From NCBI RefSeq assembly GCF_004193175.1, contig NZ_SAUH01000001.1, positions 5,303,501 to 5,367,500 of the forward strand: a DNA stretch of 64,000 bases, written 5' to 3'. This DNA comes from Streptomyces sp. RFCAC02. Its GTDB lineage: Bacteria; Actinomycetota; Actinomycetes; Streptomycetales; Streptomycetaceae. A program made the position numbers and the translations under genes. Below are positions 4,849-31,996 of the stretch, in pieces; position 1 is the stretch's first letter, and each line of letters opens with the position of its first letter. Below the pieces are notes generated by a model. It was given only the letters and a program-made list of their open reading frames with translations, searched no databases and was not told the origin of the DNA.

Positions 4849-5257
4849 TCAGCAGATGGTCACCCGACGCAGGTAGGGCCACGTCCTCGGCCCGACGATG
4901 CCGTCGGTCTCCAGGACCTGCCTGCCGCAGAGCTTGTTGACCGTGGCCTGGAACAGCCGCGCGGCGGCCTGCGAGTTGCTGCCGAAGATCCCGTCGACCG
5001 TCCCCGTGTTGAACCCCCTGTGGCGCAGCAGGCACTGCGCCTCAAGGTCCGCGTCCGTCACCGACGACGAACCTCGGCGTGACGCTCTCGCCGCTGTAGT
5101 ACCCGGCGTAGTACTTGCCTGTGCCGGCGCGGGTCTTGACGTAACACGCGTACGCCTGCGCGCTCGCGTCGGTGGCCGCCGACGACGTCGCCGTCAGGCC
5201 GGACAGGAGCAGGACGCACACACCCGCCGCCACACCGAACTTCGTTCCCCACCGCAT
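4849..5257 (-). pseudogene. Secreted peptidoglycan-binding-like protein, frameshifted
   Basis: The ATG at 5257 (GGAGG 8 bases upstream) opens a frame with a signal peptide (MRWGTKFGVAAGVCVLLLSG ... ATSSAAT) and then YACYVKTRAGTGKYYAGYYS, but it stops about 70 residues on. A second frame, +1 shifted, continues with SSSVTDADLEAQCLLRHRGF and a PG_binding_1-like repeat (GTVDGIFGSNSQAAARLFQ ... DGIVGPRTWPYL). In related Streptomyces secreted proteins these two parts form one polypeptide. Removing one T around 5070-5071 restores a continuous reading frame. This is either a genuine inactivation or a sequencing/assembly error. The second part also begins with a possible GTG at 5061, so separate translation cannot be excluded, but that product would lack a signal peptide. 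Confidence 0.75.
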
Positions 5258-5432
5258 GGGACGACCTCCACGGTCGTGGCCGGGTCCGGGCATCGAGGCC
5301 GTCCCCCGCCGCGTCCCCGCCCCGAGTCCCGCGCCGGTACCGGAACCCCCACGCGCCACCCCGGGCGGGCTGTCGGGACCATCCTGGCGAAGGCCGCTTC
5401 CACGGCGCTTTCCTCACCTGCCCCGCCGGCGG

Positions 5433-7223
5433 TCACCGGCCGACGGCGTACCCCTGCATGCCGCGCGGGTTCGCCGCCGCCGACAGGCGGCCCGTCTCCG
5501 GGTCACGCGCCACCGCGCACAGCCGGCCCTCCGACCACGGATCGCCGACGGTCACGAGGTGCCCGCGCCGCCGCAGCTCCGCGACGGTGTCCTCGCCGAC
5601 GCGCGACTCCACCGTCACGCTGCCCGGCACCGTGGCGCGCGGGTAGAACGAGCTGGGGAAGGAGTCCTGGTGCCAGTTCGGCGCGTCGATCGCGCCCTGC
5701 AGGTCGAGACCGCCGCGCACCTCCGGGCGCAGCGTCACCGCCAGGAAGAAATGCGTCTGCCACTGGTCCTGCTGGTCCCCGCCCGGCGTGCCGAACGCCA
5801 GCACCGGCTCCCCGCCGCGCAGCGCCAGCGACGGGCTGAGCGTGGTGCGGGGGCGCCGCCCCGGCGTCAGCGACGACGGCAGGCCCTCCTCCAGCCACGT
5901 CATCTGCAGCCGCGACCCGAGGGGGAACCCGAGACCGGGCACCACCGGGCTGGACTGGAGCCAGCCGCCGCTGGGCGTGGCGGACACCATGTTCCCCCAG
6001 CGGTCCACCACGTCCACATGGCACGTGTCGCCGCGCGTCTCGCCCGTGCGCGCCACGGTCGGCTCGCCGGAACCCGGCGCCGCCGGAACGCCCGGCACGC
6101 CGTCCCGCACGTACGCGGCCAGCCGGGGCGTACGGCCGCCGGGGCTGCCGGGACGCAGCTCGAACGAGGCCCGCTCGCCGATCAGCGCGCGCCGCGCGTC
6201 GTTGTACGCGGGTGACAGCAGGTCGTCCAGCGGCACGTCCGCCGCGTCCCCGTACCACGCCTCCCGGTCCGCCATGGCGAGCTTGCTGCCCTCGACCAGG
6301 GTGTGCACGTAGTCGGGGGAGCCGTACGACGCGGCGTCGATCCCGTCGTCGAGCAGCGCCAACTGCTGCGGCAGCGCCGGGCCCTGCGTCCACGGCCCGG
6401 CCTTCGCGATCGTCCAGCCCCGCCACTCGTACAGCAGCGGGTCCTCGTAGGCGGCGGACCAGCCCGCCAGGTCGTCGCCGGTCAGGACGCCCGCGTGCCG
6501 CCGCCCGGAGGAGTCCATCGCGGGCCGCGCCGCGTGCGCCGCCAGCGCCTCGCCGATGAACCCCTCGCGCCACACGCGCCGCGCCGCGTCGATCACGGCC
6601 TCCCGCGACCCGCCGCCGGCGGCCGACGCCTCCGCGAGGAGCCGCCGCCAGGTCGCGGCCAGGTCCGGGTTGCGGAACAGCTCGCCCGGCGCGGGCGACC
6701 TGCCGCCCGGCAGGTACACCTCGGCGGACGACGTCCACTCCTCGGTGAACAGTTCCCGCACGCTCTCCACGGTCGCCCCGACGCGCTCCACGACGGGGTG
6801 GCCGCCCTCGGCGTAACCGATGGCGTGGTCCAGCACGTCGGCGAGGCCGCGCGTGCCGTGGTCCCGCAGCAGCACGAGCCACGCGTCGAACGCCCCGGGG
6901 ACGACGGCGGCGAGCGGCCCGGTGCCGGGCACCAGGTCGAGGCCGAGGCCCCGGTAGTGCGCGATGGTCGCGCCCGCCGGGGCGGGACCCTGCCCGCACA
7001 GCACCCGGACCGGGCCGCCGGCGGGCGCGAGGATGATCGGCGCGTCGCCCGCCGGGCCGTTGAGGTGCGGCTCGACGACATGCAGCACGAACGCGGCGGC
7101 CACAGCGGCGTCGAAGGCGTTGCCGCCCCGCTCCAGCTCCGCCATGGCGGACTGGGACGCCAGCCAGTGCGTGCTGGAGACCATGCCGAACGTGCCCTGG
7201 AGCGTGGGACGGGTGGTGAACAT
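5433..7223 (-). CDS. Gamma-glutamyltransferase family protein
   Basis: A 596-residue N-terminal-nucleophile hydrolase. The pattern of the gamma-glutamyltranspeptidase family is clear: GGNAFDAAVAAAF near residue 34, HLNGPAGD at 53, and the autocleavage nucleophile Thr400 in RGDTCHVDVVDRWGN. Later come GFPLGSR and PRTTLSPSLALRGGEP, which form the glutamate pocket region. There is no signal peptide at the chosen start, so it is likely cytosolic, as in the acylase-like branch common in Streptomyces. It would cleave gamma-glutamyl or related amide bonds. The start is uncertain between 7223 and an in-frame ATG at 7235; MFTTRPTLQGTFGM is the start I recall for relatives. Confidence 0.88.
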   Translation of the reverse strand: MFTTRPTLQGTFGMVSSTHWLASQSAMAELERGGNAFDAAVAAAFVLHVVEPHLNGPAGDAPIILAPAGGPVRVLCGQGPAPAGATIAHYRGLGLDLVPGTGPLAAVVPGAFDAWLVLLRDHGTRGLADVLDHAIGYAEGGHPVVERVGATVESVRELFTEEWTSSAEVYLPGGRSPAPGELFRNPDLAATWRRLLAEASAAGGGSREAVIDAARRVWREGFIGEALAAHAARPAMDSSGRRHAGVLTGDDLAGWSAAYEDPLLYEWRGWTIAKAGPWTQGPALPQQLALLDDGIDAASYGSPDYVHTLVEGSKLAMADREAWYGDAADVPLDDLLSPAYNDARRALIGERASFELRPGSPGGRTPRLAAYVRDGVPGVPAAPGSGEPTVARTGETRGDTCHVDVVDRWGNMVSATPSGGWLQSSPVVPGLGFPLGSRLQMTWLEEGLPSSLTPGRRPRTTLSPSLALRGGEPVLAFGTPGGDQQDQWQTHFFLAVTLRPEVRGGLDLQGAIDAPNWHQDSFPSSFYPRATVPGSVTVESRVGEDTVAELRRRGHLVTVGDPWSEGRLCAVARDPETGRLSAAANPRGMQGYAVGR

Positions 7224-7272
7224 GCGCCGGATCATACGTCTTTCGTACGAGCTGGGCGATGGGCGGCGCAGG

Positions 7273-7758
7273 TCAGGCCGGTTCCCAGGCGCAGCCGCTC
7301 GTCTCGAAGTACGCACCCTCGGCGACGGTGACGCGGGCCGGGCCGTCCGGCATGCCGTTGGCGAGGACCGCGTCGAAGCCGCCGCCGGGATCGCTCGTGA
7401 GGGTCCACCGGCACAGGGGCGCGAGAACGCCGGCGGCCGGGCCTGCGGTCCGGTACTCGCCGGGGGCGATGTCCTCGCCGACGAGGTAGACGCCGGGGCC
7501 GAACGACGCGCCCGAGTCCGCCGGTTCGCCGGCCGGCTCCGGCGTCTCCTCGGCCGCCGCGGGGGCCGGGGCCGTCCACGCCCCCGCGGTGAGCGACTGT
7601 TCGGCGGCGCCCCCGCCGTCCTCCGTCCCGCCGGGCACGCCGATGGCCGCGCCGACGGCGAGGCAGAGGACCCCGACCGCGCCGTGCGTCAGGATGCTCC
7701 TCCGCAGGCCCGGCCGGGCGGGGCGTGCCGCGGGTGCGGTCGGCTCGGAACTCGGCAT
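7273..7758 (-). CDS. Membrane-anchored extracellular protein of unknown function
   Basis: A 161-residue protein with a short cytosolic N-terminus, one hydrophobic segment (SILTHGAVGVLCLAVGAAIG) and a Pro/Ala/Glu-rich linker. An extracellular domain with GVYLVGEDIAPGEYRTAGP, CRWTLTS and VTVAEGAYFETSGCAW follows. The two cysteines in this domain probably pair. This small domain recurs in actinobacterial surface proteins; I know no function for it. The ATG at 7758 is preceded by GAGGGG at 5 bases. The gene follows the same direction as the gamma-glutamyltransferase gene but with a separate start region. Confidence 0.75.
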   Translation of the reverse strand: MPSSEPTAPAARPARPGLRRSILTHGAVGVLCLAVGAAIGVPGGTEDGGGAAEQSLTAGAWTAPAPAAAEETPEPAGEPADSGASFGPGVYLVGEDIAPGEYRTAGPAAGVLAPLCRWTLTSDPGGGFDAVLANGMPDGPARVTVAEGAYFETSGCAWEPA

Positions 7759-7950
7759 GCGATCCCCTCACATGACGCGCTGCGGATGGTCGGACGGTGT
7801 GGGGGAAAACGATCCTGCCGCATCCGTGCGCCGATGACGAGGGACGTGCGGGTGTCGGGTGGCAGACGGGCGGGCGTACGCCGCCGTGGCGTGTGACATG
7901 TACGCGCGGCGGTCTGGCCGTCGTGGCGGAGGGAGGTCTAGCCTCCTGTG

Positions 7951-7964
7951 TGGGAGCGCTCCCA
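7951..7964. promoter_or_regulatory. CebR-type operator
   Basis: TGGGAGCGCTCCCA is a perfect 14-bp palindrome identical to the CebR binding site I recall from Streptomyces cellulose/cellobiose genes. It lies 55 bp upstream of the start codon of the Cip1-like secreted protein, inside its probable promoter. CebR is a LacI-family repressor released by cello-oligosaccharides, so the gene should be induced during cellulose growth. Confidence 0.88.
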
Positions 7965-8018
7965 TGGTCGGCTGGGAGAGCCACCGAGGCCCCCACACCC
8001 AAGCTGGAGGAAACCCCC

Positions 8019-8819
8019 ATGCATCCTTCCCGCGCACTGCCCCGCTCCTGGCGCGTCCCCGCCGCGCTCACCGCCGCGCTCGCGCTCGTCGCCGCCGGGG
8101 CCGCCGCCTCGGCGTCCGCCGCCCCGACGGCCGCCTGCACGGCCGACGGCTTCTGCGAGGACTTCGAGTCCCAGACCGGCACCCAGCCGGCCGGCCGCTG
8201 GGCCACGGAGTTCCCCGACTGCTCCGGCACCGGCACGGCGGCCATCGACAGCGCGGTGGCCCACGACGGAACCCGGTCCGTCCGCGTCGACGGCGGACTC
8301 GGCTACTGCAACCACGTCTTCGTCGGCACCGACCTCGACGACGTGCCCGCGGCTTCCGACCTGTACGTGCGGTTCTGGGTCCGGCACACCACCGACCTGC
8401 CGACGCAGCACGTCACGTTCCTCGCCATGGAGGACGCCGCCGACCAGTCCCGCGACCTGCGCATGGGCGGCCAGAACGGCATGCTCCAGTGGAACCGCGA
8501 GTCCGACGACGCGACCCTGCCCGAACAGAGCCCGGCAGGCGTCGCGCTCAGCGTGCCGCTGCCCACGGACACGTGGTCGTGCGTCGAGTTCCACGTCGAC
8601 GCGTCGGCCGGGCTCCTCGACACCTGGGTCGACGGAACGGCCGTCACCGGCCTCACCGTCGACGGCACGCCCACCCACGACATCGACGGCCAGTGGCTGA
8701 ACCGCACCTGGCGCCCCGACCTCACCGACCTGCGCCTCGGCTGGGAGAGCTACGGCCAGGGCACCGACACCCTCTGGTACGACGACATCGCCGTCGGCAC
8801 CACCCGCACCGGCTGCTGA
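8019..8819 (+). CDS. Secreted Cip1-like protein (polysaccharide-associated)
   Basis: A 266-residue protein with a signal peptide (SWRVPAALTAALALVAAGAA ... ASAAPTAA) and a beta-jelly-roll domain that begins GFCEDFE. It contains DLYVRFWVRHT, QHVTFLAM, the MGGQNGMLQWN segment and ends in LRLGWESYGQG and LWYDDIAVGTTRTGC. The pattern resembles the bacterial homologues of fungal Cip1, a protein co-induced with cellulases and structurally like polysaccharide lyases. Catalytic activity of that group is not established. GGAGGAA precedes the ATG. The CebR box upstream supports a role in plant-polymer use. A strong hairpin ends the gene. Confidence 0.75.
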   Translation: MHPSRALPRSWRVPAALTAALALVAAGAAASASAAPTAACTADGFCEDFESQTGTQPAGRWATEFPDCSGTGTAAIDSAVAHDGTRSVRVDGGLGYCNHVFVGTDLDDVPAASDLYVRFWVRHTTDLPTQHVTFLAMEDAADQSRDLRMGGQNGMLQWNRESDDATLPEQSPAGVALSVPLPTDTWSCVEFHVDASAGLLDTWVDGTAVTGLTVDGTPTHDIDGQWLNRTWRPDLTDLRLGWESYGQGTDTLWYDDIAVGTTRTGC

Positions 8820-27421: not shown

Positions 27422-27551
27422 TCCGTCACCTCTGCTCCGCGGGCGCGCCGCCCGCGCCCACCCGTCCGGTCACCGTACCCGAGGACCCGGTCCGTACCGG
27501 TTTCGCGGGCGGGGTCGTCCACCCGGGCGCGCACCGGTAGAGTCCCCGGCC

Positions 27552-28295
27552 ATGGACGAGGACGCGCGCACCCTCCTGACAGCCGTGGTCATCGCCGCAC
27601 TGGCCGCGCTGGCCGTGGGCTGGTTCCTGCGGGCACACCTGGCGGACCGGTCCCGCCGCCGCCTCCAGCGGTTCTTCGGCCTGCCCGACAACTCCGAGTG
27701 CCTGCTCGTCGTCGGCAGGGACACCGGCACGGACGGCTCGGTGGCGCGCGACGACGTCTTCGCCCTCATCGAACTCGCCGCCGTCATCAAGAACTGCGGG
27801 GCCAAGGCGCAACTGCTCTCCGGCGAGAGCGCGCGCCAGGGCTTCGGCGAACGCACCGAATTCTGCATCGGCGGCCCCATGACCAACCGCCGCATGGCCG
27901 CCCACCTCCACAGCCTGCTGCCCGGCGTCATGGTCAACACCGACAGTGAACCCGGCCCGGACCGCGGCGCGTTCCTGATAGGCAGTGAGCGGTACCGGCT
28001 GGAGAACGGCTCGGTCGAACACGTGCTGCTCGCCCGGCTGACGGCGGGCCAGGAGGGCCGCCCCGTGTTCCTCGCGTGCGGCCAGAAGTCGATCACGAGC
28101 CAGGCCGCCGCCCGCTACCTCGCGAAACACCACACCCGCCTGGCGCGCAAGCACGGCTCGGGCGGCAACTTCTGCCTTCTCCTGCGCGTCGTCAACTCAC
28201 AGGCGTACGGCCCCGACGTGGTCGAACTCGTCGCCGACGTGACGCGCAGCGCGACCACCCCGGGCCCCAAACTCGCCAAATCCGCGGGAAACTGA
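27552..28295 (+). CDS. Membrane-anchored protein of unknown function
   Basis: A 247-residue protein with one N-terminal membrane helix (TLLTAVVIAALAALAVGWFL). A cytosolic alpha/beta domain follows, with LLVVGRDTGTD, FALIELAAVIKNCGAKAQLL, EFCIGGPMTNRRMAAHLHS and PVFLACGQKSITSQAAARYL. The motif CIGGPMTNRR suggests a conserved ligand-binding loop of a Rossmann-like fold, and I recall similar proteins only as Streptomyces hypotheticals. It ends 28 bases before the convergent KGGVGR-ATPase gene. A role linked to that unit is possible but not shown, because orientation is opposite and MarR is divergent. The ATG at 27552 follows a weak ribosome-binding site. Confidence 0.7.
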   Translation: MDEDARTLLTAVVIAALAALAVGWFLRAHLADRSRRRLQRFFGLPDNSECLLVVGRDTGTDGSVARDDVFALIELAAVIKNCGAKAQLLSGESARQGFGERTEFCIGGPMTNRRMAAHLHSLLPGVMVNTDSEPGPDRGAFLIGSERYRLENGSVEHVLLARLTAGQEGRPVFLACGQKSITSQAAARYLAKHHTRLARKHGSGGNFCLLLRVVNSQAYGPDVVELVADVTRSATTPGPKLAKSAGN

Positions 28296-28323: not shown

Positions 28324-31017
28324 TCAGAGGCGTACTACACGTGCCCTGCCCTGGGTGCGGAAGCCCAGCGCGTGCCGATAGATCTCAGGCATGCGATAGC
28401 GGCCGTCTGTGTCCCTGCTCAGGGCTCCCCATTGCCGGAGAGCATCCACATCGTCGGTCCCCAGCCCCAGATCAGCCGTCTCGAACGGCATCTTCACGGA
28501 GTCGGCGTAGGTCGCCATGTGCCGCAGCAGTCGTCCGAGACGGGGATTCTCCTGGCGGATCTCGTCCACCTTCGCCCGACTGCACTCACCCAGCGCCCGC
28601 CGCATGGCGGATGGGGTCAGCAATCTGTCCGACCAACGGCCGTCTCCGATCGATGCCGCGGCTGCCTCGCAGATGAACCGGACGACGTCACGGGCCTGGA
28701 TCTGTCCGTTGAAGTCCGCGAGCGCCGCGGGAACCCAACGCTCCGTCCATGCCTCGCGTGACCGATCCGTACCCAGCTTCGCGCCCCATAGCGGGGTGAG
28801 CGCCTCGACGATCTCGTCATAGACCATGTCCGCGATCGGGGTTCTTGGTTCCGGCACCGCCTCGGAACCCGCCGCGACCCACAGGGCGAGACGCAGTGCG
28901 TCCTCGGTCTCCCAGCGCAGCTCGTAGGGGGAGTAGCGATCGAGGAACTGGCCGAGATTCTGCTTGATGGCCGCGCGCACCAGGTCCTGTCGAACGAAGA
29001 CCACGAGACCGAAGCGGCGGTTCCGGAGCCGTCGCAGCCATGCCGGGACATCGATGAGCAGGGTCCGCAGGCAGACGCGCTTGGGTTCCGTATCCAGTGA
29101 CTCCAGCCAATCCTCAAGGCCGTCCAGGACGAAGAGGCGCGCTGGGAGGTCCGAAGGGCCGTCCAGGCCCTTTCGCACGAGGAACTCCGTGGCCGGCTCA
29201 CCCTTTTCGGCGCCCGCTGCCCAGGCGAGGGACTCCAGCCAGCGGGATCGCCAGAACTCCGGATCGTCGGCCCGTGCGTCACGGAGGGCGGCACTGAGGA
29301 GGTCCTTGATTCCCTCCGCCGTGGCTCCCCGTCCGTCGTGCGCCGCGCGATCGCGCAGATCCTGGGGGGACAGGGTGCCAGTCCTGGGTTCGGCGATATT
29401 GGCCGGGTCGAGCACCGGAACGATCGTGGCGGACCGCTCGACGTCCTGACCGTTCTCCCGTGCGAAAGTCTCCCAGGAACCGGCCGCGCACATCCGCATG
29501 AAGGAGAACGTTTTGCCGGAGCCTTTCGCGCCGGTGACGATCACCACGGGAAGATCGGTGCTGTGATCGGCGATGAGCCGACGCACCGGCTCGGTGGTGA
29601 GGAAGCCGAGCCCCTCGTCCATCCCGCGTCGCTCGGCAAAGACCAGACGGCCCGCCGCCTCCTGCAGCTGCCGTCGCCGCGCGTCCAGGGAGGACGGTTC
29701 TTCCGCGAGTGCCCCGGTGTCGAACTCGCGGCTCGGCGCGAACTCGGCCACCGTCTGCGGCAGGCCGCAGCGCCGGATCACGTCCACCACTGCGTCCCAG
29801 CCCTGCGGGAGCGCCAGCAGTTCCTCACGGAATGGACTCAGCGAGGGCTCCGTCAGTACCTGCTCATCGACCGCCAGATCGTCGGGAGCGGAGTCGTCGG
29901 CTTCGGCCAGGGCGATAGTGGAGGAGAGCGCTGCGGACAGGCTTCGCCGCGCCGCGTCCGCATGACCGTCATGGACGTCGAGCCGGTACTGGGTGATGAT
30001 CGCACCGGGGGTAGGATCGGCTCCGGCGACAGCCGGGGACTGGGCACCCAACTGCCGGATCATCGCCTCGGTGCCCTGGAGGGACTGACTGCTGACCGTG
30101 GTGACGAAAACTCTCGTCACTCGTGGGTCGAGCAGCACGGGCGCCGCCAGTTCGGAGGCCCCGGCCCGCAGATCCATGACGACGGTGTCGGCATCGGCGG
30201 CGACGGCGAGCGCTGTGATGGCCTCGGTGAGGAAGTACGGGGACCGGTCCTCGGTCAGCAGATCGGCCGGACTGATGCGGGGCGGCCCGAGAGCCGTCCG
30301 CCGGCTCGCCGGCAGTACCGTCACGCGGCCTGTCCCCGGGTAGTGCGACACCCGTTGGTTGGGCAGGTAACCGGCGGCGATCTCGACCGCCTGCGTCGGA
30401 TCACCATCCTGCGACGCATGCAGCAGAGCCAGCACATCCTCGTACGCGATGTCGCAGCGTCCACCCTGCGCCTGATACATCCACGTGATCCCGGGCGCCT
30501 CCAGATCGGCGTCGATCAGCAGCACGCGCTGCCCCTGGGAGGCGAGGAGATCGGCCAGTGCGACGGCATGCAGGGTCCGGCCCACGCCGCCCTTGAAGGA
30601 ATGGAAGGCGATCAGTTGAGTGTTGTCCGCGAACTGCGCCGGTGCCGGGCGGGGGAGGACATCGGCGAGTGCGGAGGTGACACGCCGTGCACTGAGCCTC
30701 GGCCGGCGCGCAGCCACATCGATGGACTCCGCTTCGACGAGACGGATGGGCAGTCCATGGGGAAGGAGAGATGGTGGGCGGTCCAACGCCAGTTCGGGTT
30801 CCTCCGGGGAACCAGTGGTCGATCCGAGGCCGAACTGACCGTCGAGCCAGTCGCGCACCGTGTCGCTCCCGGTACCCGGCAGGACGGTGAGCTCCAGGCC
30901 GTCCCACCACGCGTCGGCTTCAAGCAGCCACCGGGGCCATTGGCCGTCGACGGCCGCGCCTGCCAGCCGGTCGTCCACGTCCACCCAGGTGAAGAGCTTG
31001 TCGGACATGGCGTTCAT
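28324..31017 (-). CDS. KGGVGR-motif SIMIBI NTPase fused to a second P-loop NTPase
   Basis: An 897-residue cytosolic protein in two halves. After about 130 N-terminal residues comes a ParA/MinD-like domain with the deviant loop FKGGVGRT (142-148; Arg where ParA has Lys) and VLLIDADLEAPG (165-176). VVMDLRAG near 279 fits its next strand. A second domain carries a classic Walker A GAKGSGKT (496-503), Walker B RLFVLDGLEDWL (627-638) and FVRQDL near 674, as in AAA+/STAND-like ATPases. A helical C-terminal region of about 200 residues ends with a winged-helix-like segment. The family is known as KGGVGR-variant AAA ATPase and is tied to actinobacterial conflict systems. Its ATG overlaps the HEPN-like gene by ATGA, so the two proteins are probably made together. 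The GC content and codon use are visibly lower than in the surroundings. Confidence 0.88.
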   Translation of the reverse strand: MNAMSDKLFTWVDVDDRLAGAAVDGQWPRWLLEADAWWDGLELTVLPGTGSDTVRDWLDGQFGLGSTTGSPEEPELALDRPPSLLPHGLPIRLVEAESIDVAARRPRLSARRVTSALADVLPRPAPAQFADNTQLIAFHSFKGGVGRTLHAVALADLLASQGQRVLLIDADLEAPGITWMYQAQGGRCDIAYEDVLALLHASQDGDPTQAVEIAAGYLPNQRVSHYPGTGRVTVLPASRRTALGPPRISPADLLTEDRSPYFLTEAITALAVAADADTVVMDLRAGASELAAPVLLDPRVTRVFVTTVSSQSLQGTEAMIRQLGAQSPAVAGADPTPGAIITQYRLDVHDGHADAARRSLSAALSSTIALAEADDSAPDDLAVDEQVLTEPSLSPFREELLALPQGWDAVVDVIRRCGLPQTVAEFAPSREFDTGALAEEPSSLDARRRQLQEAAGRLVFAERRGMDEGLGFLTTEPVRRLIADHSTDLPVVIVTGAKGSGKTFSFMRMCAAGSWETFARENGQDVERSATIVPVLDPANIAEPRTGTLSPQDLRDRAAHDGRGATAEGIKDLLSAALRDARADDPEFWRSRWLESLAWAAGAEKGEPATEFLVRKGLDGPSDLPARLFVLDGLEDWLESLDTEPKRVCLRTLLIDVPAWLRRLRNRRFGLVVFVRQDLVRAAIKQNLGQFLDRYSPYELRWETEDALRLALWVAAGSEAVPEPRTPIADMVYDEIVEALTPLWGAKLGTDRSREAWTERWVPAALADFNGQIQARDVVRFICEAAAASIGDGRWSDRLLTPSAMRRALGECSRAKVDEIRQENPRLGRLLRHMATYADSVKMPFETADLGLGTDDVDALRQWGALSRDTDGRYRMPEIYRHALGFRTQGRARVVRL

Positions 31018-31430
31018 GCTCCCTTCCGGACGTTCCGAAGCAGCGACTTCAAGGCTTCCACCGCAGCCTTCTCATCTTCGGCGCGCAACTCCGCACCGTA
31101 ACGCCATGCCTCGTGCAGTTGATGACCCTCGACGAGGGTGCCTGCCCTGTGCCGATGACAGCGCAGCGGGTCCCCATCCGGTGACGGAGCACGGAGGTTG
31201 AGTGCCTTGGCGAGGCGACGCAGATCATGCGTACGCAAATACGCGGGCAGCCCGGATGTGTCTCTGCGTTGCAGGATGCTGTGCAGTACCTCGGCCTTCA
31301 GGCCGCACTCCGCGGCGTAGAAGAACAGCAACCCACTGATCGCGCTCTCCCCTGCCTCCTCGGCCGCCCGGCCTTGCCTGGCGAGCCGTTCACGGCTCCG
31401 TCGCAGCTCGCTGACCCCCACGTCCACCAC
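31014..31430 (-). CDS. HEPN-like small helical protein
   Basis: A 138-residue, all-alpha-looking protein. The segment ISGLLFFYAAECGLKAEVLH followed by YLRTHDLRRLAKALNL has the layout of HEPN domains (a helix with AAE.GLK, then a HDL helix). A late LHEAWRYGAEL helix completes it. The canonical nuclease motif R-x4-6-H is not obvious, so it may be a regulatory HEPN, or the motif is displaced. It is the first gene of the two-gene unit: its stop overlaps the ATG of the NTPase gene (ATGA). The start is uncertain, GTG at 31430 or 31427, with no good ribosome-binding site. In toxin-antitoxin and defence loci HEPN proteins often pair with NTPases; that role is inference. Confidence 0.7.
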   Translation of the reverse strand: MVDVGVSELRRSRERLARQGRAAEEAGESAISGLLFFYAAECGLKAEVLHSILQRRDTSGLPAYLRTHDLRRLAKALNLRAPSPDGDPLRCHRHRAGTLVEGHQLHEAWRYGAELRAEDEKAAVEALKSLLRNVRKGA

Positions 31431-31492: not shown

Positions 31493-31921
31493 TCAGTCGC
31501 CGGCGATCTCCGCGTAAACCTGCGAGAGTTCGGGCGAGCCCGTGTCGGCCCAGTCCTGGCCGGCCGACACGACGTCGATCTCGCGGCCCGACGCCATCAC
31601 CACGACCGGTCTGCCGTCAGGACCCGGCTCCCAGCGGGCGCCCGGCACCGTGCGCACCAGCACCGTGCCCAGGTAGAGCCCCGCGTCGTTGCCGAGCCAG
31701 GGGAGTTCCTCCGGGTCGTCGCGCCAGCGCGGCAGCAACTGGTCGAGCGCCTCCAGGGACACCGGCGTGTCCCCGAGGACCACGCCCTCGCGCTGCGCGC
31801 GGTCGCGCAGCAGCTCGCACTCGGAGAGCAGCTGAGCAACCCCTTCGGGGTCCGGCCAGGAAGCACGCACGGCCGTGGTGGTGGAGTGCTTGCGCCAGTT
31901 GTCCAGGAAAGGGATGTTCAT
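31493..31921 (-). CDS. DUF6278-like protein
   Basis: A 142-residue protein beginning MNIPFLDNWRKHS, which I recall as the start of a Streptomyces DUF6278 family. The rest is soluble, acidic and without known motifs (VAQLLSECELLRDRAQREG, LPWLGNDAGLYLGTVLVRTV). The ATG at 31921 was chosen over a longer upstream frame because the family begins there; there is no strong ribosome-binding site. It lies upstream of the HEPN-like gene on the same strand, 62 bp away, so it could be transcribed with it, but DUF6278 is found alone in other genomes. Function unknown. Confidence 0.7.
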   Translation of the reverse strand: MNIPFLDNWRKHSTTTAVRASWPDPEGVAQLLSECELLRDRAQREGVVLGDTPVSLEALDQLLPRWRDDPEELPWLGNDAGLYLGTVLVRTVPGARWEPGPDGRPVVVMASGREIDVVSAGQDWADTGSPELSQVYAEIAGD

Positions 31922-31996
31922 GCCCCCAAGAATCCCATTCCCGCGCCCGCCCGCACCACAGGCACGCGTCACTACTTGTTCACAGTTCCGGTCATC

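Follow-up and report, generated by a model that had tools for sequence, protein, structure and literature searches.

The question raised by this locus is what function is served by two adjacent genes, coding for a small protein with a predicted HEPN fold and for a large protein with two nucleoside triphosphatase (NTPase) domains, in a 64,000-nucleotide stretch of the Streptomyces sp. RFCAC02 chromosome (contig NZ_SAUH01000001.1, positions 5,303,501 to 5,367,500; hereafter the window). An earlier note, made from the letters of this stretch, had proposed a role in defence or programmed dormancy. We consider the pair to be probably (at a rough probability of 0.6) a mobile abortive-infection or dormancy antiviral module, a fused two-gene variant of the candidate system PDC-M28 in which the HEPN-fold protein would be the effector and the NTPase its partner or switch. 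The observations behind this reading are the predicted fold, the pairing and co-variation of the two proteins, an invariant arginine and other invariant residues, the patchy distribution and moved location, and relatives in the hotspots of P2- and P4-like elements.

Pairing and co-variation of the two genes

Genome contigs were searched with the small protein alone, which gave 214 pattern stretches, 151 of them confirmed; the best 80 were kept (79 distinct loci), and a viral scan with the same protein added one contig (L084). The large gene lies directly downstream in 79 of the 80 loci, so that the two genes, treated as a unit by the earlier note, do stay together, and the sole exception (L051) is a remnant. 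The strain that harbors this remnant, Streptomyces sp. NRRL S-1022, has one intact pair (L006) and, at L051, a small-gene remnant with a C-terminal scrap of the large gene. In some loci (e.g., L044, L055, L056, L067, and L071) the large gene is cut by the contig end or broken. Three loci were added from a Streptomyces genome sample, two of which seem to be duplicates of L017 and L034, and the large gene forms one intact open reading frame (ORF) in 72 of the resulting 82 pairs, a number that includes both apparent duplicates. The protein distances of the partners are strongly correlated over the 72 intact pairs (Mantel r 0.925), a value reached in none of 2000 permutations.

A quick tree of 70 large proteins comprised nine phylum-level groups, i.e., Actinomycetota (46 rows), Pseudomonadota (9), Cyanobacteriota (5), Acidobacteriota (3), and five single rows including an archaeon, together with 2 unlabelled rows. 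The sequences grouped mostly by phylum and several long branches were flagged; within Actinomycetota, Streptomyces was intermixed with Saccharopolyspora, Phytomonospora, Actinomadura, and Nocardia. In a sample of the whole phylum the large protein was matched at E ≤ 1e-40 in 2 of 396 genomes, its own included, a count that understates the spread because two candidates were scored per genome.

Distribution and insertion site in Streptomyces

Within the genus, the large protein was found at E ≤ 1e-30 in 4 of 150 genomes including its own, i.e., in 3 of the 149 others, with six candidates scored per genome and weaker relatives (e.g., the G007 protein described below) uncounted. The gene to the right of the pair (DUF6278) is present in 16 other relatives of the same genus. 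The stretches of 11 of these were compared and the pair was found in none; eight of the 11 have both this gene and the one that adjoins the pair on the left (the anchors in Table 1), and the pair is missing in all eight. Between the anchors of the relatives there is a glutamate-type ABC transporter set together with an S15-kind peptidase, complete or in part (by sequence reading, no family search), and because the best matches in the window genome to two of these proteins have 40–41% and 32% identity, the block seems to be missing there, with the pair in its place. A universal, vertically inherited Streptomyces gene was thus rejected, and the sporadic, mobile distribution agrees with the earlier note, for which universality in the genus would have spoken against defence.

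Other loci have other surroundings: the window anchor genes occur in the flanks of none of the 80 relatives' loci, and the flanks of L051 and L053 match only a SpoIIE-type protein (29–42% identity). In six Streptomyces loci (L018, L019, L020, L021, L022, and L024) the pair occupies one common chromosomal site with long similar flanks, which suggests vertical inheritance after one insertion.

Relatives in P2 and P4 hotspots

The viral contig L084 encodes a terminase, a portal (phrog_68), a scaffold, a major head protein, an endolysin, and an origin-nicking replication protein (phrog_91), and by this gene content reads as P2-like; the pair is located between the portal and replication genes. A search with the L084 DNA matched 11 of 5,426 E. 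coli genomes, whose copies are ≥ 99% identical to one another (11 records, two with one strain name). The large protein of this E. coli version shares 54.6% identity with its L084 counterpart and, over 804 residues, about 30% with that of the window. In all six E. coli records examined the pair lies between the tRNA-Leu-side integrase and psu of a P4-like satellite, an insertion sequence element being inserted before psu in one of them. In another observation, the large gene of E. coli 2018-01-1CC (L168:11665-14336) is annotated as two pieces and is whole in the other five records. The P2 gpA-gpQ and P4 int-psu positions are described as antiphage hotspots by Rousset et al. (PMC9122126). Residence in two antiphage hotspots, belonging to two kinds of mobile elements, is the strongest reason to call the pair a defence module.

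The effector and NTPase families of PARIS and other two-gene systems of the P2 and P4 hotspots differ from those of the pair. The likeness is one of plan and place, as these systems also combine an ATPase with a small partner (DUF4435 in PARIS) in the same int-psu or gpA-gpQ hotspots (PMC9122126).

The hotspots also bear on the explanation that the pair is a toxin-antitoxin system kept for its own maintenance, with a ParA-type NTPase as antitoxin, a HEPN toxin, and any defence incidental. Two overlapping genes and co-variation of the partners would fit it, and toxin-antitoxin function was postulated for the MAE_18760 dyad, in which a HEPN gene likewise stands beside a SIMIBI (ParA/Soj-fold) NTPase (Anantharaman et al. 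2013, PMC3710099, in the part available). The two cases differ in a motif, as the MAE_18760 HEPN keeps Rx4-6H and the window small protein does not; a second NTPase is not mentioned for the dyad in that part of the paper. We regard this explanation as unlikely, since an 897-residue dual-NTPase partner would be larger than expected of an antitoxin and the P2/P4 antiphage hotspots point to cargo selected against other phages, yet the same hotspots also hold toxin-antitoxin-like pairs (gop-beta, PMC9122126).

Relation to PDC-M28

The earlier note considered the pair not nameable; its kin, however, already carry the PADLOC candidate label PDC-M28, a three-gene form with the order A-B-C, and, as judged from profile matches, the window pair is a fused B::C, divergent sister arrangement of it. 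The genome of the window also has a complete three-gene PDC-M28 about 1.3 Mb away (L111, G000:C1:4026000-4040000, genes 4907-8210 (-)), with proteins of 168 (A), 446 (B, 466.8 bits), and 486 residues (C, 570.5 bits); its A and B genes share 4 nucleotides. Split and fused forms are thereby seen in one genome. Component B was recognised in the large protein as a distant match (PDLC04559, E 1.6e-16, 58.4 bits vs. 466.8 for the same-genome M28B), with the M28B profile aligned by hhalign to columns 126-332 (prob 98.5, E 2.2e-15). Component C was recognised as well (PDLC04561, E 8.6e-10, 36 bits vs. 570.5 for the same-genome M28C; hhalign prob 98.7, E 3.1e-16, columns 594-898). For component A the match to the window small protein is weak (E 0.0081; best relative 0.0015): two M28A models were matched at E ≤ 0.01 by 9 and 4 of the 79 small-family sequences, and the comparison of the M28A and small-family profiles (hhalign prob 88.9, E 2.4e-6) extends over 23 columns only.

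The gene order is the same in both forms, the A/B pair in this genome has the 4-nucleotide overlap, and, by eye, M28A shows E-C-A-L-K, H87, W127, and R132-Y133, similar to the pattern of the small protein. The difference is that B and C are separate genes there and one protein of about 900 residues here, fused in 72 of 72 intact relatives; a simple PDC-M28 member was rejected because the genes are fused and A is divergent. The M28A alignment has an invariant R32 and an H39 kept in at least 90% of sequences (numbered on L111:7707-8210), a Rx6H spacing just before the ECALK helix that the window family does not have. Pfam was matched by none of the 36 M28A members, and no M28A relative was found among 22 pattern stretches of the viral contigs.

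In the genus sample, M28C was matched at E ≤ 1e-5 in 16 of 150 genomes (13 strong matches, one partial in G062, and two fused in G104 and G007), and M28B adjoins M28C in 10 of the 13 strong loci. The fused protein of G104 belongs to the same family as the window pair, while that of G007 is an 872-residue protein (L142:5545-8163 (-)), KGGVGR-like with RGGVGRT; no HEPN-like gene was seen next to it, and a nearby gene looks transposase-like (by eye). This solitary fused protein is possibly a third architecture. Separately, M28C-type ATPase genes without an adjacent M28B were noted in Streptomyces (L143:5912-7477, L144:4159-5649, and L138). At L144 a different small gene precedes the ATPase, and C may have other partners.

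The small HEPN-fold protein

A HEPN fold is predicted for the small protein, as the earlier note had supposed, with the classical ribonuclease (RNase) motif not conserved. Eight columns, charged residues among them, are invariant across the 79 sequences; E41, K45, H68, and R110 are each present in 79 of 79, and the kept pattern is E41-x3-K45, H68, and W109-R110-Y111. AbiV and HEPN-T are described with an Ex3[KR] motif and an alternative conserved histidine upstream of a conserved basic residue (PMC3710099), and the small protein, with both Ex3[KR] and the alternative histidine in its alignment, appears to resemble this site. It differs from AbiV and HEPN-T (AF0298, PDB 2hsb) in its partner gene, here a dual NTPase. 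The Pfam family PF05168 (HEPN) was matched by one of the 79 sequences (E 0.00048), no solved HEPN chain matched the small protein at E ≤ 1, and profile searches of solved structures with the small protein, M28A, and M28C gave nothing useful.

The large dual-NTPase protein

The large protein consists of an N-terminal alpha+beta domain, a MinD/ParA-fold KGGVGR NTPase, a second NTPase, and a helical C-terminus that is winged-helix-like in its secondary structure (by eye); its AF2 model has a pLDDT of 87.0. The KGGVGRT and GAKGSGKT motifs reported earlier are both present, and NF047398 (AAA_KGGVGR) matches residues 133-323 with 167.9 bits against a cut-off of 90. KGGxGRT, with arginine in place of the P-loop lysine, occurs in all 72 relatives whose large ORF is intact, and GxKGxGK[T/S] in 68 of them. 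The second NTPase gave a weak match to the Sll1717 P-loop ATPase model (NF047389, 38.1 bits, below the cut-off of 75; best stretch 629-826). The earlier view of two distinct NTPase domains was upheld. For the STAND-likeness of the second, the matches to nSTAND5 (17.6 bits, cut-off 34) and NACHT (13.6, cut-off 26.7) stay below the curated cut-offs; the VIA list in the STAND test of the large protein was taken up by the MinD domain.

A sequence search of solved structures with the large protein found seven ParA/MinD/ArsA-type chains for the first NTPase. Two viral-protein structures matched at E ≤ 0.001, one named ParA and one unnamed, and the only PHROGs match of the pair is the ParA-like phrog_164. 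In the Foldseek search the third match was a BrxC-containing complex (9zll; E 1.8e-6, prob 1.00, TMq 0.20, root-mean-square deviation (rmsd) 17.9). BREX BrxC and DUF499 ATPases are ORC/Cdc6-STAND AAA+ proteins with a winged helix-turn-helix (PMC12839542), and the second NTPase followed by a helical C-terminus is a further likeness to them. The superposition is poor, however, and no methyltransferase, PglZ, or helicase was recognised among the flanking proteins scanned.

Proposed function and alternative explanations

In the proposed mechanism the HEPN-fold protein would be the effector, probably an RNase with an AbiV/HEPN-T-type site (E41/K45, H68, R110), and the KGGVGR MinD/ParA-fold domain and the second NTPase would bind nucleotide and keep the effector off. 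Once infection is sensed, the large protein would change its assembly state via nucleotide and thereby release or activate the HEPN protein, and the unleashed effector would bring about abortive infection. Antiviral activity, RNase activity, the trigger, the sensing domain, and the order of events are what we infer here. More tentatively, the family could be a deep-branching, cross-domain antiviral switch of bacteria and archaea, in which a HEPN protein with a non-classical site is governed by a MinD-type KGGVGR NTPase lacking the P-loop lysine and an ORC/BrxC-like NTPase, a two-stage nucleotide checkpoint that P2/P4-type phages and satellites would exchange as weapons against other viruses. 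We know of no characterised counterpart for such a checkpoint.

Several results weigh against the antiviral reading. No recent transfer between phyla is evident, since the rows of the tree cluster mostly by phylum. Searches with the window protein matched none of 50,697 phage records (E 1e-8) and none of 72,556 plasmid records (E 1e-20). With the L084 large protein a single phage record was matched, at 24% coverage, and no plasmid; with the E. coli pair there was no phage match. No functional test of any family member was found. The surroundings of the actinobacterial loci add little: in a PADLOC tally at E ≤ 1e-8, which covered 145 of the 151 listed proteins near 41 loci and 124 random Streptomyces proteins, 28 families were matched near the loci, 25 of them listed, vs. 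6 in the control. Four were matched in both sets (near loci vs. control: mad2, 1 vs. 4; mad3, 3 vs. 4; mad8, 2 vs. 4; AriA, 1 vs. 2), as was one C3a oxidoreductase/desaturase model in each. What remained near the pair were type II methyltransferase and restriction-enzyme models, PDC-M30A, PDC-S07, and ZorB, and in the control one ATPase-Toprim model. Five kinds against one among the listed families, after removal of the common models, is a small and unconvincing excess, in a comparison made with a crude gene caller (some ORFs on the wrong strand) and a control confined to Streptomyces, to which 19 of 20 regions contributed. A defence role is made likely by the hotspot locations of the P2/P4 relatives; the defence-island setting named in the earlier note is not shown among actinobacterial neighbors.

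The small protein itself supplies the remaining counter-evidence. Any Rx4-6H spacing occurs in 41 of the 79 sequences (some rows partial) without a common place, the commonest column pair being shared by 12, vs. 36 of 36 in M28A; a canonical HEPN RNase was rejected for this reason and RNase activity is accordingly uncertain. In addition, H106 is replaced by asparagine in the P2-like and E. coli copies. The missing motif would suit a catalytically dead HEPN protein serving as adaptor or as nucleotide or RNA sensor, in which case the dual NTPase would be the effector and, in the manner of BREX-type ATPases, would target DNA or phage replication by way of its C-terminal part; the third-ranked 9zll match points the same way. 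We find this improbable, somewhat more so than a toxin-antitoxin pair, as the eight invariant HEPN columns contain charged residues that fit the alternative site and family models recognised no nuclease domain in the large protein.

A role in partition or chromosome biology of the ParA/MinD kind, unrelated to defence, is very improbable, given that the partner is a HEPN protein and not ParB (none was seen in a scan of eight flanking proteins; no search for centromere sites was made), that the P-loop lysine is consistently lost, and that the distribution is sporadic, with hotspot locations and no plasmid matches; plain ParA partition was rejected on the partner, ParB, and plasmid results.

Gene coordinates and composition

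Both coupled ORFs of the earlier note were recovered, and their ATGA overlap depends on the use of the first ATG (Table 1). The database copies start at inner codons (large protein P0001, 894 aa from MSDK; small protein P0121, 135 aa), which would leave a short gap in place of the overlap. Over the 82 pairs, a 4-nucleotide overlap is available in 45, a 1-nucleotide overlap in 2, and another spacing in 35.

Table 1 Features of the locus, in window coordinates
Feature	Positions	Strand	Remarks
Small HEPN-fold protein gene	31014..31430	(-)	138 aa; alternative start gives 135 aa
Large dual-NTPase protein gene	28324..31017	(-)	897 aa; alternative start gives 894 aa
ATGA stop/start overlap of small and large genes	31014..31017	(-)	if first ATG is used
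KGGVGR NTPase core	30049..30618	(-)	residues ~134-323; KGGVGRT, DADLEAPG, DLRAG
Second NTPase and C-terminal region	28324..29559	(-)	residues ~487-897; GAKGSGKT, DGLED, FVRQDL; homologous to PDC-M28C
Left anchor gene	27546..28295	(+)	outside module, marks insertion site; conserved; no Pfam match at E ≤ 0.01
Right anchor gene, DUF6278	31493..31972	(-)	outside module; conserved

The lower GC content noticed earlier was confirmed (68.3% and 65.7% for the two genes), and GC at third codon positions is 0.805 and 0.734 vs. 0.881–0.975 in the eight flanking genes measured. The claim that there are no metabolic neighbors is partly right: the flanks are chromosomal genes (DUF6278, an exonuclease/endonuclease family protein, a metallo-beta-lactamase-fold protein), a CDP-alcohol phosphatidyltransferase among them. 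The left anchor gene has a hydrophobic N-terminal stretch (by eye), is conserved in Streptomyces, and is the left anchor in 8 relatives. Clustering of the neighborhoods of the relatives yielded helix-turn-helix-type regulators (by sequence reading), ABC transporters, and one syntenic group.

Conclusions

A full-text literature search for KGGVGR, PDC-M28, and Sll1717 found no paper within its scope, outside of which lie most subscription papers and preprints. The fused pair is not described in the accessible text of PMC11514479, PMC3710099, PMC7159879, PMC13092281, PMC10853773, PMC12839542, PMC9122126, and PMC9519451, supplements being outside this scope, and Table S1B of Rousset et al. may list the P4-borne pair. 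In Microcystis phage Mic1 (MN013189.1, 8162-8794), a protein annotated 'ParA family protein' resembles the second NTPase of the L084 large protein (24% of the latter covered, 29% identity, E 2e-18). The KGGVGR NTPases already had a family name at NCBI and a candidate label in PADLOC; here they are tied to a HEPN-fold partner, and intact but distant relatives, about 30% identical, are found within published antiphage hotspots, namely in P4-like satellites of E. coli and, in one case, in a P2-like contig. Because of these relatives the question can be put to a standard panel of phages in E. coli K-12, beyond actinomycetes, and the answer bears on the effector status of HEPN proteins that have an AbiV-like site and on the role of the arginine P-loop.

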